DNA of 41,245 bases from Sulfurovum sp. (GTDB lineage: Bacteria > Campylobacterota > Campylobacteria > Campylobacterales > Sulfurovaceae). Where the stretch lies: NCBI GenBank assembly GCA_026990595.1, contig JALXCZ010000044.1, positions 1 through 41,245 on the forward strand, read 5' to 3'. Positions 20,407-27,420 of this stretch are shown piece by piece. Both the position numbers and the translations under genes were made by a program. Positions within the stretch are counted from its first letter, which is position 1, and the number at the start of each line of letters is the position of its first letter. The notes below the pieces were generated by a model, which worked only from the letters and a program-made list of their open reading frames with translations, was not told where the DNA came from and did no database searches.

Positions 20407-20994
20407 TTATGAATTAATTGTAATCGGTACACCGTTCTCTACTGCTACCCAAAGTCTGTCCATTGCTCGATTTGGCACTGCCATACACCCTTCTGTCCAG
20501 TCATGTGAAAGCGTATAATTGTCTCCATGTCCGTCTGCATTCCATTTTGGTTGCCCATGTATCGTAATATATCCTCCCGGTGTTGCCCCATGCGCTCTTG
20601 CTCTTGCCTTATCTGCAGCATTCGGATAAGAGATCATTAAAGATCTATAGAGTCTGGGATCACATTTTTTTCTTACAATACAATAACTCCCTTCCGGTGT
20701 TCTATAATCTCCGGCACTGATCTTATTTCCTTTATCTCCATTTTTTCCCAAAGAGATACGAAATTCATCCACCACTTTTCCATTACGATAGGTATAGAGT
20801 CTTCTTTTCTTTTTATAGACAACGATCTTGTCTATTTTTTGACTTTTGATAATTTCAGAACCTGAAGCCAACTGCTTACGGCACTCTTTTGTCGCATAAG
20901 GTGTTTTATCTACTTTACCATAGGCTGTAGGCTCTCCGCACCCTCCAATAAAAAAAACTGTTACCGCTGCTAAAAATCCTAATATTACTTTCAT
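20407..20994 (-). CDS. Lipoprotein L,D-transpeptidase (YkuD family), copy 1
   Basis: 195 residues. The lipobox FIGGC puts the lipid on Cys19, so it is membrane-anchored on the periplasmic side. The YkuD catalytic motif is HGQPKWN followed by SHDWTEGCMAV, with catalytic Cys170, and TPEG and PGGYITIHG upstream. Family members cross-link peptidoglycan stem peptides or attach or release proteins. The ATG at 20994 has GGAG before it; an earlier in-frame ATG (21009) is rejected because it would swallow that ribosome site. It is about 21 bases after the small helical gene and is about half identical by eye to copy 2. Confidence 0.88.
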   Translation of the reverse strand: MKVILGFLAAVTVFFIGGCGEPTAYGKVDKTPYATKECRKQLASGSEIIKSQKIDKIVVYKKKRRLYTYRNGKVVDEFRISLGKNGDKGNKISAGDYRTPEGSYCIVRKKCDPRLYRSLMISYPNAADKARARAHGATPGGYITIHGQPKWNADGHGDNYTLSHDWTEGCMAVPNRAMDRLWVAVENGVPITINS

Positions 20995-21015
20995 TTTTTC
21001 TCCTGTCATTTATAT

Positions 21016-21411: not shown

Positions 21412-21993
21412 TTAGCGAATAATGATCGGTACACCTTCTCGTACCGCATACCATAATTGTCTCATAGCAGTGTTTGTCACGGCAACACAACCTTCCGTCC
21501 AGTTATGGGAAAGAGTATAAGTGTCTCCTTTCCCGTCCGCATTCCATACAGGTTGTGCATGAATAGTAATATCACCTCCTGGATTCACTCCTTTGGCTTG
21601 TGCTTTTTTCACATCTTCAGGACGAGGGTAAGAGATGCAAAGCGAACGATAATATTTGGGAGAGCATAACTTTCTCTGTATCCAAAAAGTACCCTCCGGA
21701 GTTTTATAATCCCCTTTTTGTTCCTTCGTTCCTACAGGATTTTTTCCTAAAGAAACAGGGATCGTACTTTGTACTTTGTTATTTTTATAAAGATACATTT
21801 TACGTTCTTTTTTTTCAACGATGATCAGATCGATACTCTCGCCTTCTATATAATCCTCAGCATCCAAAAGCTCTTTTTTACATTCATCCAGAGTATAGCG
21901 GTTTCCTTGGACTTCCGGATCTTTTCCACAGCTGGATAAAGCCAGTAAAAAGAAAAATAGAAAATAGAAAATAATTCTGTGGCTTAAAAACAT
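21412..21993 (-). CDS. Lipoprotein L,D-transpeptidase (YkuD family), copy 2
   Basis: 193 residues if started at the ATG at 21993: hydrophobic signal then lipobox ALSSC with Cys22. YkuD motifs match copy 1: TPEGTFW, PGGDITIHAQPVWN, and SHNWTEGCVAV with catalytic Cys169. An upstream TTG (22059) would add 22 hydrophobic residues but falls within the hairpin after tpx. The ATG has no ribosome site; TACAAT only 5 bases before it could be a -10 box, which would make the message almost leaderless. The pair of paralogues around a small gene suggests a local duplication with an acquired or divergent partner. Confidence 0.85.
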   Translation of the reverse strand: MFLSHRIIFYFLFFFLLALSSCGKDPEVQGNRYTLDECKKELLDAEDYIEGESIDLIIVEKKERKMYLYKNNKVQSTIPVSLGKNPVGTKEQKGDYKTPEGTFWIQRKLCSPKYYRSLCISYPRPEDVKKAQAKGVNPGGDITIHAQPVWNADGKGDTYTLSHNWTEGCVAVTNTAMRQLWYAVREGVPIIIR

Positions 21994-22054
21994 AAGTGAT
22001 TGTAACGAAATTCGAAATAAAGATAAATAAAATGGGAGAAAAAATGGGAGAAAG

Positions 22055-22078
22055 TTCAAAACCCGGAAGGGTTTTGAA
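22055..22078 (-). terminator. Hairpin after tpx
   Basis: Perfect 10-bp stem TTCAAAACCC / GGGTTTTGAA with a 4-base loop, starting 5 bases after the tpx stop on the minus strand. The downstream side is CTTTCTCCCATTTTTT, a broken U tract. It separates tpx from the L,D-transpeptidase group. Confidence 0.6.
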
Positions 22079-22083
22079 AAAAA

Positions 22084-22599
22084 TTAAAGTGCTGCTTTAG
22101 CTGCTGCGATAGCTTCTTCATAGTCAGGCTCTTGTGTAATTTCAGGAACAACTTGCTTATAAGTGATTTTTCCGTCTTTTCCTACAACAAAGATAACTCT
22201 GGCAGTTACACCCGCCAAAGGACCGTCTGCAAGAAGTACACCGTAAGCATTTGCAAACTCTTTATTTCTGAAGTCAGAACATACTTTTAAATTTTCGATT
22301 CCAGCTGCTCCACACCATCTAGCCGCTGCAAATGGAAGATCCATAGATACAGTGATCACTTCTACACCGTCTAGTGACGCTGCTTCTTGGTTGAATCTTC
22401 TAGTCTCTGCATCACATACACCAGTGTCCAGTGAAGGAACTGCAACTACAAGTTGCACTTTACCTTCTCCCCCTACTTGTTCGTCTTGAAGCATTGGATC
22501 ACAGTTTACTACTGTGACTACCGGTGCTGTATCACCTACGTTGATTTCTGTACCGCCAAGGTTACATACGATGTCATTTTTAAATGTTACTGTTGCCAT
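22084..22599 (-). CDS. tpx: Thiol peroxidase (2-Cys, Tpx type)
   Basis: Thioredoxin-dependent peroxidase of 171 residues protecting against alkyl and hydrogen peroxides; expected in periplasm or cytoplasm without an obvious signal peptide here. The peroxidatic Cys62 lies in SLDTGVCDAETRRFN, and the resolving cysteine is Cys96 in RWCGAAG, the E. coli Tpx pattern (Cys61/Cys95). An extra Cys107 follows. The ATG has an AAGGATATT in front. Downstream hairpin suggests it is monocistronic. Confidence 0.95.
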   Translation of the reverse strand: MATVTFKNDIVCNLGGTEINVGDTAPVVTVVNCDPMLQDEQVGGEGKVQLVVAVPSLDTGVCDAETRRFNQEAASLDGVEVITVSMDLPFAAARWCGAAGIENLKVCSDFRNKEFANAYGVLLADGPLAGVTARVIFVVGKDGKITYKQVVPEITQEPDYEEAIAAAKAAL

Positions 22600-22862: not shown

Positions 22863-23255
22863 TTATTTATTTGCGATTGCTTTTACCCATTTTTCCATGG
22901 CTGCATTGGCATCCGGATTTGGTGCTTCCAAAAAGCTTATGACAAAACTCTTGTGCATTTCAGCAATACCAAAAGAACGTGGTCTTACCCCAAGCACTTC
23001 CGGCTTAGGCAATACTTTCCCAAAACAACAAATAAGATTTTTAGCATCTTTAATATTCTCTGAAATTTCTCCGACTTTAAGACCCGACGTATGGGCATAA
23101 TGATCAAAAACACCAATAACCACTGCTACAGGATGTGCTTCTATCTGAGTTTTCAAATATGTGATAATTTCATCTACATTGTTATAGGTTGTCTCATTTT
23201 TTGCTATTTCAATGGTAAATACTGGATATTTTTCCATGACTGTGATTTGTTTCAT
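22863..23255 (-). CDS. Conserved hypothetical protein, 130 residues
   Basis: Soluble alpha/beta-looking protein without signal peptide; I recall similar proteins (DUF6858-like) in sulfur-oxidising epsilonproteobacteria but cannot confirm it. Features: a YHAHTSG-like DHYAHTSG (about 51-58), an internal ICCFGKVLPKPEVLGVRPRS (about 74-94, in pieces) with adjacent Cys-Cys, and a C-terminal helix. The paired cysteines next to a conserved Gly-Pro-rich loop could be a redox or metal site. An AAAGGA ribosome site precedes the ATG. It follows the repeat block after the SQR-like gene. Confidence 0.65.
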   Translation of the reverse strand: MKQITVMEKYPVFTIEIAKNETTYNNVDEIITYLKTQIEAHPVAVVIGVFDHYAHTSGLKVGEISENIKDAKNLICCFGKVLPKPEVLGVRPRSFGIAEMHKSFVISFLEAPNPDANAAMEKWVKAIANK

Positions 23256-23484: not shown

Positions 23485-24654
23485 TCACATTCCAGGGATT
23501 CTTGGGATCTTTCCCAGTTTGGAATTACGGCAGTACCATCCCCACCCTTTTTTCATCCAGTGTCCTATGATCGGCATAGGGATCATTTTGCCCCCTTTAT
23601 TGTCTCTGTAAACAAAAGCTGCTCCATTACCAGTATCCATGACACACAAAATATTGAGATGCTCTTCATAGCTGTATTTTGAATCAATATTCTGGATCTT
23701 CATCGCTATATTGTAGGCTGTATTTTTAGCCATAACCTCAGCCACATGTCCTTGTTTGGCTCTCCACTCCGGACCCATAAGTGAAGCAGAATCACCAATA
23801 GCATAAATACCTTCAAATCCCTCTATCTCATTGTATTTATTGGTCACAACAAAGCCTGCTGCACTCAATGGCAATCCAGACTCTGCTAAAATACTATGTC
23901 CCGTTCCTGCAGAGATGAACATGGTGAGATCAGATACTATCTTCTCCCCATCCTCAAAGAGGATGCCATCTTCTATAAATTCTGTAATTTTTGTACCGAC
24001 TTTTTTCTTGATATTGGTCATTCCGAACATCTTGTCCATCATCACCAATGCTTTGTCACCCATTTTCTGTCCAGGTTTTTCCATAGGTGCAAAGAAAGTC
24101 AATTCAAAATTTTCTCTGATACCTTTGTTCTTTAGAAAATTATGGACATTGAAAAGCACTTCAAAAGCAGGACCTCCACGGACAGCAGAACTGTCTTTTG
24201 GGTTTCCGCCAAAACCCATAGCGATCTTCCCACTATCTTTAAGAACAAGGGCATCCAAACGTTTGTAAAGTTCTTCTGCCTCTTCAGGTTTCCCGCAAAT
24301 AGAAAGTGTGTGCTCCATCCCTTTATGTTTCATCTTGTCCTGTCCAAGTGCAACAACAATATATGCATAATCATCTAATACCCGACCACTTTCAAGTGTT
24401 ACCCTTTTTTCTTTTGCTTCAAAAGAGACTACCGGATCAATGATCAGCTTAAATCCATGCTTAAAAGCGATCTTGTCAAGAGGTACAGAAACATCCTCTT
24501 TGGTTACCTCTCCTGTCGGTATCCAGATTGAGGTAGGATAGATATAAAAATAATCCCTCTCACTTACCAGTGTTACATCAAGTTCCTGTTTTCTGAGGTA
24601 AATTGCCGCTTCAACACCCGCAAATCCACCACCTAATACTAAAATTTTTGACAT
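23485..24654 (-). CDS. SQR-like FAD-dependent oxidoreductase
   Basis: 389-residue flavoprotein of the sulfide:quinone reductase/FCSD/NDH-2 superfamily. FAD binding GGGFAGVEAA (8-17 from the chosen start), an ALGQ (about 102-105) and a C-terminal GDSASL near 295. The SQR-type cysteines are Cys120 (SICGKP) and Cys337 (NILCVMD), with the usual central cysteine absent: the matching place has SSAVRGGPAFE. Sulfide oxidation by the usual three-Cys mechanism is thus uncertain. The WGWYC tail (Cys375) looks membrane-associating. Start ATG 24654 has AAGGAG; an upstream GTG (24660) is rejected. It follows ccoG by 9 bases, so both share an operon. Confidence 0.85.
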   Translation of the reverse strand: MSKILVLGGGFAGVEAAIYLRKQELDVTLVSERDYFYIYPTSIWIPTGEVTKEDVSVPLDKIAFKHGFKLIIDPVVSFEAKEKRVTLESGRVLDDYAYIVVALGQDKMKHKGMEHTLSICGKPEEAEELYKRLDALVLKDSGKIAMGFGGNPKDSSAVRGGPAFEVLFNVHNFLKNKGIRENFELTFFAPMEKPGQKMGDKALVMMDKMFGMTNIKKKVGTKITEFIEDGILFEDGEKIVSDLTMFISAGTGHSILAESGLPLSAAGFVVTNKYNEIEGFEGIYAIGDSASLMGPEWRAKQGHVAEVMAKNTAYNIAMKIQNIDSKYSYEEHLNILCVMDTGNGAAFVYRDNKGGKMIPMPIIGHWMKKGWGWYCRNSKLGKIPRIPGM

Positions 24655-24663
24655 TATCACTCC

Positions 24664-26118
24664 TTACTTTTTAAGGAGATCTGAACGAGGATAGACAAAT
24701 ACAGTGTGTCTTTCTACTGCAATTTTCTCTTTGTCATCCGTTGCAAATGCCTTGATCGTTACAGGGATCGGTGTATCTTTTCTTGCATTATTCGCTAAGC
24801 GTTCTTTGGTTCTAAGCACAACCACTTTTTTACGTTTTTTGCCCGGGGCAATAGAAAAAGGCTCTTTAGGTCTAATGATCTTGATTTTATTTTTCAAATC
24901 TCCTTCTATCTCAAAGTAATAGGTATGTTTTTTGCTGTCTGTATTGGCAAAAAGGAAAAGGTAATCATTCTCTACCCTACCATGATCAAGTACTTTATAA
25001 AGTCTCGTTGTTTTATTGACATTCAACAGCATATGTTCTTTTTTGCTTCCCATAACAAACAGTGCAACAAGTACAATTGCCAATACTGTAAAGTACGCAA
25101 TCACTTTAGGTCTGAAATAATTTGTTTTACCTTTTTGATAGATTGTCTCATTCTCACTTGACCATTTTACCAGTGAAGGTTTACCTAAGGCACCCATAAC
25201 TGTCGTACAGGCATCAACACACTCCAGACAGTTAATACACTCAAGCTGTAATCCTTTACGGATGTCGATGTGCGTAGGACAGACCGTTACACAACTCTCA
25301 CAGGTCGTACACTCTGCTGTAGGATCCGCAGCAAGCAGCTCTTTTGTTTTACTATACTCTTTGTGTCTGTCATGTCCATGCCCCTGGTAGATCTCTCCTC
25401 CACGATTAGGATCGTAGATCGCCATGATCGTATCATCATCATACAGTACTGACTGTACACGGCTGTAGGGACAAATATAAACACAAAAATCCTCTTTAAT
25501 AAAGATAACATCAACAATAATAAAGAGAGCAATACCGATCAGCATTCCAAATAGCATCATGTGTTCACTTGGATTTTGCAAATACTTGAAAAAATCTTCC
25601 GGCGGCACAAAGAACCAAAGAAAGTCTGCAGCAGCAATAAACGCCAGAATCGACCAGAGCAGAATCGCGATCACTTTTTTCACCTGATTTTCAGGTTTAC
25701 TCATGTCCGGATCTTTTTGCTTGTTTTTAATACGCTTTCTCAAGCCAAGCAGTTTTGTTTCTATTCCATCTCTGTAGATGACTCGGAAAATCGTTTGAGG
25801 ACAGGCCCATCCACACCATGCTCTACCACCTACTGCTGTTACAGCAAAAATACCCAGAAAAAGCAACATAAGCAAAAACGGCATCAAATACAGTTCCTGC
25901 ATATCAAATGCCACACCTGCCAAGTGTAGTTTTTTATGGTCAAAACTAAGTAGAAAAAGGTGATTCCCCCCAATAGTGATCCAGGGCATTACAAGTGCTA
26001 CGATCGTCGCCGCTACATATGCCCAATAACGTTTAATACGATAAGGTACCCACCCCTTTAAATACTCTTTTGCTTGGTTCTTTTTGGATTTTGTCTCTTC
26101 ATTCACAATTGCTTCCAT
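24664..26118 (-). CDS. ccoG: Cytochrome c oxidase accessory protein CcoG
   Basis: Integral membrane iron-sulfur protein (484 residues) of the CcoG/FixG/RdxA family needed for copper handling during cbb3 oxidase assembly. Several membrane helices; CGWACP at 102-106; then a 2[4Fe-4S] ferredoxin region with Cys269, 272, 275, 279 and Cys293, 296, 299, 303; the last 130 residues are an immunoglobulin-like periplasmic domain. Start ATG at 26118 follows AAAGGAT; the longer frame upstream belongs to the regulator gene, whose stop codon ends one base before. It sits between a degenerate resolvase-like regulator and an SQR-like enzyme, suggesting joint control of respiration. Confidence 0.94.
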   Translation of the reverse strand: MEAIVNEETKSKKNQAKEYLKGWVPYRIKRYWAYVAATIVALVMPWITIGGNHLFLLSFDHKKLHLAGVAFDMQELYLMPFLLMLLFLGIFAVTAVGGRAWCGWACPQTIFRVIYRDGIETKLLGLRKRIKNKQKDPDMSKPENQVKKVIAILLWSILAFIAAADFLWFFVPPEDFFKYLQNPSEHMMLFGMLIGIALFIIVDVIFIKEDFCVYICPYSRVQSVLYDDDTIMAIYDPNRGGEIYQGHGHDRHKEYSKTKELLAADPTAECTTCESCVTVCPTHIDIRKGLQLECINCLECVDACTTVMGALGKPSLVKWSSENETIYQKGKTNYFRPKVIAYFTVLAIVLVALFVMGSKKEHMLLNVNKTTRLYKVLDHGRVENDYLFLFANTDSKKHTYYFEIEGDLKNKIKIIRPKEPFSIAPGKKRKKVVVLRTKERLANNARKDTPIPVTIKAFATDDKEKIAVERHTVFVYPRSDLLKK

Positions 26119-26119
26119 T

Positions 26120-26791
26120 TTATGATATCCTTTCTTGTTGTTGTTTCTCTTGTTCAAATGGACATACCAATATCGTATTGTCCACGCCTGAAATATCCTG
26201 AGGTTGATTGATCTCCATCCAAGATCCTTCAACCAATTCTTTTATCCCTCTTGACTCGATATAATCTTTCAAAGAACTCCTGCTGACCTTTAATTCTCTT
26301 GCAATGGCACTGACATTCATCCCTCCTTTAAGTAAAGCGATGATCTGCGGCTGATACTCATCAAACTTTGAGGAAGATCGGCTTCCTTTCGGACGACCAA
26401 TCTGATTTGATTTTGCTTTTTGTGCTTCTCGAAGATCATTGAGTAAAGGGAATATCTCTACAACTGTTGTCTCCTTATTGATCCGTCTCTTCGCACTGGC
26501 AATATACAGATCAATTTTCCGACTCAACATACAGTTTATGATTTTGATCAACTCTTCAGCACGATCACTCAAAACAGAAAGAGTATCAACAACAAGGCTA
26601 CTCCCCTCTTCTAAAGAATGCATGAACTCTTCAAACTTTTTTCTCTCTTCTATAAGGTGGTTTTTACTAGAATACTCTATCACTTCCTTATCTATTTCCA
26701 GATTTTGAGCCAATGAAAATGAGAGGATATTACGCTGCTGTTCAGACATATTGTGATTGTCCGGCATTTGTCTTAAATACGCATAATTCAT
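26120..26791 (-). CDS. Resolvase-like DNA-binding regulator without recombinase active site
   Basis: 223 residues. Residues 1-105 have the fold pattern of a serine-recombinase N-terminal domain, starting NYAYLRQMPD, but the catalytic Ser position is Met9 and the LDRLGR region is LSVLSDR (71-77), so strand cleavage is not expected. Residues 130-182 form a Hin/resolvase helix-turn-helix (GRPKGSR then ARELKVSRSSLKDYI). A 40-residue tail with Cys210 is extra. The stop codon falls one base before the ccoG ATG, so it is the first gene of the operon, and it most likely works as a transcription factor. Confidence 0.7.
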   Translation of the reverse strand: MNYAYLRQMPDNHNMSEQQRNILSFSLAQNLEIDKEVIEYSSKNHLIEERKKFEEFMHSLEEGSSLVVDTLSVLSDRAEELIKIINCMLSRKIDLYIASAKRRINKETTVVEIFPLLNDLREAQKAKSNQIGRPKGSRSSSKFDEYQPQIIALLKGGMNVSAIARELKVSRSSLKDYIESRGIKELVEGSWMEINQPQDISGVDNTILVCPFEQEKQQQERIS

Positions 26792-26949
26792 ACTTCTCCT
26801 TATAACCTTTTGCCCACTTTAACAAAAATGATGTTAAAAATACATTATTTTTCTACTAAAAGCGTCATTTTATCTCTTTTTTCGTCATTTTTCTTCATTT
26901 ACATCATTTTTTATGTTAAAATCTATAAAAATAAATAGTAGGTAACATT
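26792..26949. promoter_or_regulatory. Divergent promoter with phased TCATTTT repeats
   Basis: Between the resolvase-like gene and moaC. CGTCATTTT at 26863-26871 and 26883-26891 and CATCATTTT at 26902-26910 are direct repeats spaced 20 and 19 bases (two helical turns). Nearer the regulator gene, TTTAACA (26818-26824) and TGTTAAA (26832-26838) form an inverted repeat around AAAATGA, with another TGTTAAA at 26914-26920. The sites lie 45-130 bases from both starts, fitting an operator array for the neighbouring regulator (inference). Confidence 0.5.
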
Positions 26950-27420
26950 TTGAATTTAACACATTTAGATGAACAGAACAAACCAAAAATGGTTGATGTA
27001 GGCGACAAAGCAGCAACAACTCGTATTGCAACAGCAAGTGGAATTATAGAGGTTGGACAGGAGGCTTTTGATGCAGTAGTAGCCAACAGAGCCAAAAAAG
27101 GTCCGGTTCTCCAAACAGCCGTCATCGCAGCCATTCAAGGTACTAAACAGACAAGCACTCTCATCCCTATGTGCCACCCACTCATGCTGACCTCTGTGAA
27201 AACCGATATAGAAGAGCTGCCTAAACTACCTGGATTTAAACTCACCGTGACTGCCAAACTTACAGGACAGACAGGGGTAGAGATGGAAGCACTCACGGGA
27301 GTAAGCATAGGGTTACTTACCATTTATGATATGCTTAAAGCTATCGACAAAGGAATGATTATTAAAAATATTCAACTAGAAAGTAAATCAGGAGGTAACA
27401 GCGGTGATTTTAGACGATAA
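26950..27420 (+). CDS. moaC: Cyclic pyranopterin monophosphate synthase
   Basis: MoaC makes cyclic pyranopterin monophosphate in molybdenum-cofactor synthesis together with MoaA. The 156-residue protein shows the family stretches PKMVDVGDK (12-20), [16 protein letters not shown] (about 73-81) and [11 protein letters not shown] (about 117-127), with the expected Cys and His in MCHP. The start is a TTG preceded by TAGG. The cofactor would serve SoxC and other molybdoenzymes. Its end overlaps the DUF493 gene by 17 bp; moaC followed by DUF493 is, as I recall, also the arrangement in Campylobacter. Confidence 0.95.

Follow-up and report, generated by a model that had tools for sequence, protein, structure and literature searches.

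Within transposons, repression of resolvase genes by their own products is established; in Tn3, binding of resolvase at res brings tnpR and tnpA under autoregulation (PMC7157771). Serine recombinases such as Hin and gamma-delta bind inverted sites with a helix-turn-helix (HTH) at each outer end and with their GRxx arms in the A/T minor groove, and in Hin a GRPxG arm is followed by the HTH, an arrangement shared by the protein described here. Sin, an active enzyme whose task is recombination, illustrates a regulatory DNA-binding role for a serine recombinase when seen at its regulatory site (PDB 2r0q). Serine recombinases for inversion and excision are covered by a review of proteins recruited from mobile elements (PMC8987985), with no mention in its relevant sections of a dead serine recombinase acting as a transcription factor. 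SqrR controls sqr together with a rhodanese gene and has two cysteines, between which a tetrasulfide is formed (PMC9995734).

We analysed a 41,245-nucleotide stretch of DNA from Sulfurovum sp. (GenBank assembly GCA_026990595.1, contig JALXCZ010000044.1), hereafter the window, in which a gene termed rec encodes a relative of these enzymes lacking their catalytic residues. It is likely that this recombinase has been domesticated as a transcription factor which regulates its own gene together with oxidase and sulfide-quinone genes, probably under thiol control, with binding, direction of control and signal all being inferred. The features discussed are the following.

22863..23255, minus strand: gene for a DUF6858 protein (DUF6858 also lies behind the operator in locus L281 and in the L228 operon)
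23485..24660, minus strand: gene for an SQR-like FAD oxidoreductase (Pyr_redox_2; NCBIfam SQR_III_seleno only 86 bits, cut-off 525)
24664..26118, minus strand: ccoG, cytochrome c oxidase accessory protein of the cupric reductase family (TIGR02745, 500.8 bits, cut-off 316.7)
26120..26791, minus strand: rec, dead serine recombinase of 223 aa, predicted autoregulatory transcription factor
26829..26867, minus strand: predicted core operator, a 39-bp inverted repeat TGACG...CATCA, lying over the rec -35 element in most relatives and degenerate in the window
26883..26887, minus strand: predicted upstream TGACG direct-repeat half-site, 20 bp from the core TGACG
26902..26906, minus strand: predicted third half-site, a degenerate TGATG 19 bp further upstream (20-bp arrays in relatives)
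26950..27420, plus strand: divergent gene across the operator region from rec, which we take to be moaC-like, used as a synteny marker

The rec protein shares with the TnpR of Tn3 and gamma-delta the resolvase fold, the HTH and coverage of its own promoter (predicted in the case of rec), whereas TnpR is an active transposon recombinase and rec is chromosomal, tied to ccoG and without catalysis, with a cysteine-bearing tail and a 39-bp inverted-repeat core. The best NCBIfam match of its N-terminal 104 residues is Mpi (NF009949), although at 58.8 bits the protein falls far below the 272-bit cut-off for membership of that family, and unlike the Mpi/Hin-type invertases it has neither the serine nor the LGR arginines. 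Sin at its regulatory site was a top Foldseek match. As with SqrR, a sqr-like gene and, at one site, a rhodanese-like gene lie behind the rec-family operator; the fold however is that of a serine recombinase, and sensing by the rec protein is only inferred. No description of the rec family was found in the literature searched, which was limited to open-licence papers, and the words recombinase, resolvase, cco and cyd do not occur in the main text of a Sulfurovum indicum transcriptome paper (PMC10045233). If true, this would be a plain example of a recombinase turned metabolic regulator, its enzyme function gone and its regulatory role fixed across different families within an order. For bacteria abundant at vents and redoxclines, oxidase and sulfide-quinone genes would then have a candidate regulator, with an operator that can be searched for.

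The rec protein family and its linkage to ccoG

Pfam identified Resolvase (PF00239, E 1.8e-8) and HTH_7 (PF02796, E 8.4e-7) within the 223-aa product of rec (26120-26791, minus strand), both above cut-offs, and the protein further contains a GRPKGS arm (residues 132-137) preceding the HTH (about 144-181) and two conserved cysteines, C87 and C210. An AlphaFold2 model (113 sequences, mean pLDDT 83, pTM 0.69) was of low confidence in the tail, with the C210 stretch at a pLDDT of about 55. Foldseek searches of the PDB with this model returned serine recombinases at all of ranks 1-31 (best 2gm4, E 3.2e-8), as did the top 30 rows of VIA-align, which mainly spans residues 1-132 and includes 4bqq (Z 13.8, rmsd 2.5, 125 aligned) and 3pkz (Z 13.1, rmsd 2.6, 115 aligned). 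The rec protein, present as a single copy in its own genome, is by this homology test a small serine recombinase with a PF00239 fold and a C-terminal HTH_7.

At the position of the nucleophilic serine (YxRxS), residue 9 of the rec protein is a methionine. Intact plasmid and Arcobacter-like recombinases align as R-V/T-S-T and SRxxR where the rec protein reads RQM and TLSVLSD; the intact comparators were three named plasmid recombinases (L290-L292) and L152, which keep the serine, both arginines and the helix E stretch. Among 151 ccoG-linked relatives a serine occupies the catalytic column in two (L202 and L204) with a gap in 11, and column 9 holds 15 different residues with no conserved nucleophile. 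The first arginine of LDRLGR is present in none of these sequences and the second in one, and the equivalents of R7, Q18 and R50 are kept in 134, 148 and 149 respectively. Helix E is shortened, with 13-15 columns absent relative to the four intact recombinases; the predicted model has a helix at residues 110-129. Lacking the serine and the LGR arginines and having a short helix E, members of the rec family cannot recombine in the known way.

A family profile (A1) built from 24 relatives of the rec protein matched 215 of 398 Campylobacterales genomes at E<=0.001, which we split by hand into 156 clear members (E under about 1e-25) and 59 weak matches. Most of the latter are likely to be ordinary recombinases; at least G412 and G163 look like fragmentary or divergent family members, and G186 and G396 may possibly belong to the family. 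Scores in a draw of 150 genomes from the phylum were bimodal, with 28 genomes having a best match of 1e-66 or better, none falling between 1e-66 and 1e-23, and ordinary recombinases thereafter. ccoG (TIGR02745) was found in 383 of the 398 Campylobacterales genomes, 348 of them above cut-off, and the regulator therefore spans only part of the range of ccoG.

We sampled 207 loci, consisting of best matches and regions hand-picked for diversity, and found the family protein in 199 (156 unique sequences), with ccoG directly downstream, within 900 bp, in 151 of the 156. The ccoG start codon in the window (26118) lies one base past the rec stop codon (26120-26122), and the moaC-like synteny marker was found in 28 of 30 loci. 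The five unlinked sequences are L124, which has both cysteines and for which no ccoG was found, L153, L227, and L151 and L152 of family f8; the last, with RVST...SRLGR intact, resembles an ordinary recombinase. Median pairwise identity across 150 family sequences is only 0.40, and the columns conserved in these at >=99% are Q18, R50, C87, the GRPKGS..S.SK.D arm, R171, S173, D176, S180, R181 and C210, the last counted over the 111 sequences with an alignable tail.

C87 and the tail cysteine are each present in 150 of the 151 ccoG-linked sequences, the exception being the truncated L237. Exactly one tail cysteine is found in 147 ccoG-linked sequences, and 91 have only two cysteines in the whole protein, as does the rec protein, which is without a CxxC or His-rich motif. 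C87, within a model helix spanning residues 78-90, is the sole near-invariant Ser or Cys before the DNA-binding arm; no contact between C87 and C210 can be claimed because of the low pLDDT of the C210 stretch. Neither cysteine is present in four of the five unlinked family sequences, including the f17 relatives L153 (1315-1866) and L227 (510-1058). In L153 a 39-bp palindrome lies between the family member and a SLAC1-like gene, and the cysteines are therefore not needed for that site.

A sequence-only reading of the window had proposed that the recombinase fold and a resolvase-type helix-turn-helix were kept, that the catalytic serine had been replaced by Met9 with loss of the LDRLGR arginines, and that the gene was coupled to ccoG. 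The first of these held in Pfam and in the predicted fold, the second in the alignment with intact recombinases and the third in the ccoG-linked orthologues (151 of 156); orthologues with intact Ser and Arg sites were looked for and not found among the 151 unique ccoG-linked relatives, two having the serine and none the first arginine. The added tail with a cysteine also held (C210), while the second conserved cysteine, C87, had been missed.

The predicted operator and the genes behind it

On the minus strand of the window TGACG is found at 26867-26863 and 26887-26883 and TGATG at 26906-26902, with an inverted arm, CATCA, ending at 26829. In 28 homologous intergenic regions of the Sulfurovum type the rec strand has 57 copies of TGACG and four of its complement, where about 2.3 would be expected on both strands together, and the spacing of TGACG is exactly 20 bp in 25 of 29 cases. 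With a count so far above expectation and a fixed spacing the upstream array is not due to chance.

Promoters were compared for 150 of the 156 sequences, leaving out L151, L152, L237 and those with under 150 bp upstream. TGACG is present in 142, an inverted TGACG/CRYCA pair of 37-40 bp in total in 131 (exactly 39 in 94) and a direct TGACG pair at 20 bp in 53. A -35/-10 pair was seen in 125 promoters, TTGAC starting 23 or 22 bp past TGACG in 79 and 26 of them. The 39-bp operator consensus is TGACGAaAAtAa...ATTGACTTTTAtCATCA, and it follows that the -35 element and the inner half-site share bases. In the window both operator and promoter are degenerate, with a CATCA arm and no good -35; a single-hexamer promoter scan of the window gave nothing above shuffles and missed the rec promoter, which is visible only in relatives.

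A composite operator pattern gave 82 matches in 79 of the 398 genomes against three for the reversed-pattern control, and was found in 77 of the 156 clear-member genomes versus 2 of 242 others (Fisher 2.5e-35, shared ancestry ignored). Inside family f16 the operator was found in 18 of 30 genomes with the gene versus 0 of 15 without it (p 5.9e-5), a contrast which lessens the effect of ancestry on this association without removing it. A genus scan with the 20-bp array pattern gave 32 matches in 20 of 61 genomes and none in the control, directly upstream of rec wherever the position of rec is known. Stricter operator patterns found no site in the window's own genome (G000). What the sequences show, as expected of an autoregulator, is a conserved operator in the gene's own promoter that co-occurs with the gene; physical binding and an effect on transcription are inferred.

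Other patterns were set aside. TTGACTTTNNTCRTCA with one mismatch gave many chance matches in 20 genomes, about equal to the control in several, and the composite pattern was used instead. A looser palindrome matched 175 of 398 genomes, with many control and coding-region-like matches such as a recurrent gene-start site in f4, and for this reason was used only to choose sites, mostly those matching on both strands.

By hand comparison with rec positions, 14 of the 82 composite rows lie away from rec. Candidate targets among these are G052, G086, G401, G417, G317 and G412, the gene behind the G412 site having no Pfam match, and the off-rec matches in G116, G254, G078, G073, G246 and G351 may be due to chance. 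The other two rows, which are not among the candidate targets, are in G157 (L233) and on contig C67 of G176. Target genes could be named in 17 of 21 operator loci (L283, L284, L286 and L289 being unresolved); as these were hand-picked they show what the sites face and not how frequently. The operator lies directly before a sqr-like gene in L229, at 42 bp from one in L285, and before an operon of sqr-like, NifX-like and DUF6858 genes in L228. It also precedes DUF6858 in L281 and NifX-like genes (PF02579) in L226, L230 and L267, with L227 and L228 alike by eye, and a rhodanese-like gene lies behind it in L230. cydA follows the operator in L226 and in five f6 loci, L267-L271 (checked with Pfam in L268, and by eye for cydB and the remaining f6 loci); DUF4492 intervenes in L268 and, by eye, in L271. 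Behind the operator in nine f16 loci (L272, L275-L280, L287 and L288) are a 63-78-aa membrane-type protein and then an M48 peptidase (Pfam-checked in L275), and SLAC1 is found in L282 and, by eye, in L153, where the gene is divergent from the f17 member.

The sequence-only reading had also pointed to an array at 26818-26920 and to control of ccoG, and with it cbb3-oxidase assembly, and of the SQR-like enzyme. The array is real, conserved and specific to gene-carrying genomes, its binding being inferred from sequence alone. Control of ccoG is supported by the ccoG linkage and the conserved upstream array (binding and expression inferred), and control of the SQR-like enzyme by operators directly before sqr-like genes outside the ccoG operon in L229 and L285 (expression inferred).

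L283 and L284 (G301 and G225) contain perfect-looking 39-bp palindromes without an assignable target gene. By eye, a small membrane-type protein similar to that of the f16 loci follows cydB in L226. A lipoprotein-like ORF with a shared LG(S/A)DFDGY stretch lies near operator-controlled genes in L228 (4558-4974, no Pfam match), L226 (5347-5730) and L229 (2225-2647).

Proposed mechanism and rival explanations

We propose that a Campylobacterales serine resolvase/invertase has been domesticated into a site-specific transcription factor. By sequence the dimer fold is retained in the rec family, along with the resolvase HTH and the GRPKGS arm for the minor groove. A dimer would bind the 39-bp inverted repeat (TGACGAWAAA...TTTWTCRTCA) with one HTH per outer TGACG and its arms on the inner A/T tracts, and in Sulfurovum further subunits would occupy the upstream TGACG sites, whose 20-bp separation would place them on one helix face. 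That the protein is a DNA-binding autoregulator at this operator we consider very likely, in the absence of binding data. As the inner half-site lies over the -35/spacer of its own strong promoter, its own operon is most likely repressed, and a repressor is the likely reading rather than an activator, no expression data being available. The repressed operon would comprise rec-ccoG, with sqr-like and DUF6858 genes in several families, and elsewhere in the genome the regulator would act on cydAB, NifX-like, SLAC1 and small-protein/M48 genes.

A thiol reaction at C87/C210, involving reactive sulfur or redox species or a metal such as Cu, would then alter DNA binding. We lean, without redox data and by inference only, towards C87 in the dead domain and C210 in the added tail forming such a thiol-based switch. 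Reactive sulfur would suit the sqr-like, rhodanese-like (L230) and bd oxidase targets, though we rate sulfur species as the signal no more than a possibility, slightly ahead of copper. In a bolder reading, which we neither favour nor discount, dead serine recombinases with a two-cysteine switch (C87 and the tail Cys) would form a new class of transcription factor, widespread in Campylobacterales, coupling ccoG, cydAB, SQR-like and associated genes, by way of a resolvase-type operator of 39 bp, to the thiol, sulfur or copper state of the cell.

Copper or another metal could instead be what a true regulator senses through C87/C210, tuning Cu handling for oxidase assembly rather than responding to redox or sulfur species. 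This is possible, and copper is a serious alternative signal since the permanent partner CcoG belongs to the cupric reductase family (PMC8267372) and the f17 gene in L227 lies beside SCO1/SenC and PCuAC genes; by eye, NosL-like ORFs also lie near the L289 site. However the other targets (sqr-like, DUF6858, cydAB and SLAC1) are not Cu proteins, the protein has only two cysteines and no CxxC or His-rich motif, and the f17 relatives beside Cu chaperones are without the cysteines. It is unlikely that the operator belongs to another, unidentified transcription factor, with the dead recombinase being only a target of unrelated, for instance structural, role. The link between protein and site is a sequence association only, and the site is also found before several genes not in the rec operon; against this, site and gene co-occur across and within families, the position is autoregulatory, few parts of the protein are as conserved as the arm and HTH, and the polarity of the motif (a GC-containing outer half-site and an inner A/T tract) fits a resolvase-type DNA-binding domain. 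Hin and gamma-delta are the basis of that comparison of polarity.

Recombinase ancestry and the loss of catalytic residues could mark a decaying resolvase remnant of a lost mobile element. We regard this as all but excluded by the single copy in the genome, the vertical-looking synteny in 151 of 156 unique sequences, the lack of a match in the phage collection, and DNA-binding residues and cysteines that hardly vary although median identity is 0.40, which indicate purifying selection. Scarcely any room is left either for a still active recombinase using another nucleophile, with the repeats as recombination sites. The retained R7, Q18 and R50 equivalents (134, 148 and 149 of 151) speak for it, but column 9 has no conserved nucleophile, both LGR arginines are lost, helix E is shortened, the repeats lie over the promoter at fixed spacing, and the only near-invariant Ser or Cys before the DNA-binding arm, C87, is within the model helix at 78-90.

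Some further observations concern the genes around the predicted regulator. In certain genomes ccoG is present two or three times, in widely separated copies whose scores are equal or nearly so, as on contig C1 of G206 (1108913, 1219930 and 1330947); multiple copies are also found in G039, G053, G072, G100 and G116, some without the regulator adjacent, and duplication versus an assembly effect is undecided. In the window a thiol peroxidase gene (22084-22599, minus strand; NF001808, 195 bits, cut-off 123) lies just below the DUF6858 gene, and a paralogous ORF pair at 20407-21009 and 21412-22059 (minus strand), with a small ORF between, appears by eye to be L,D-transpeptidase-like.
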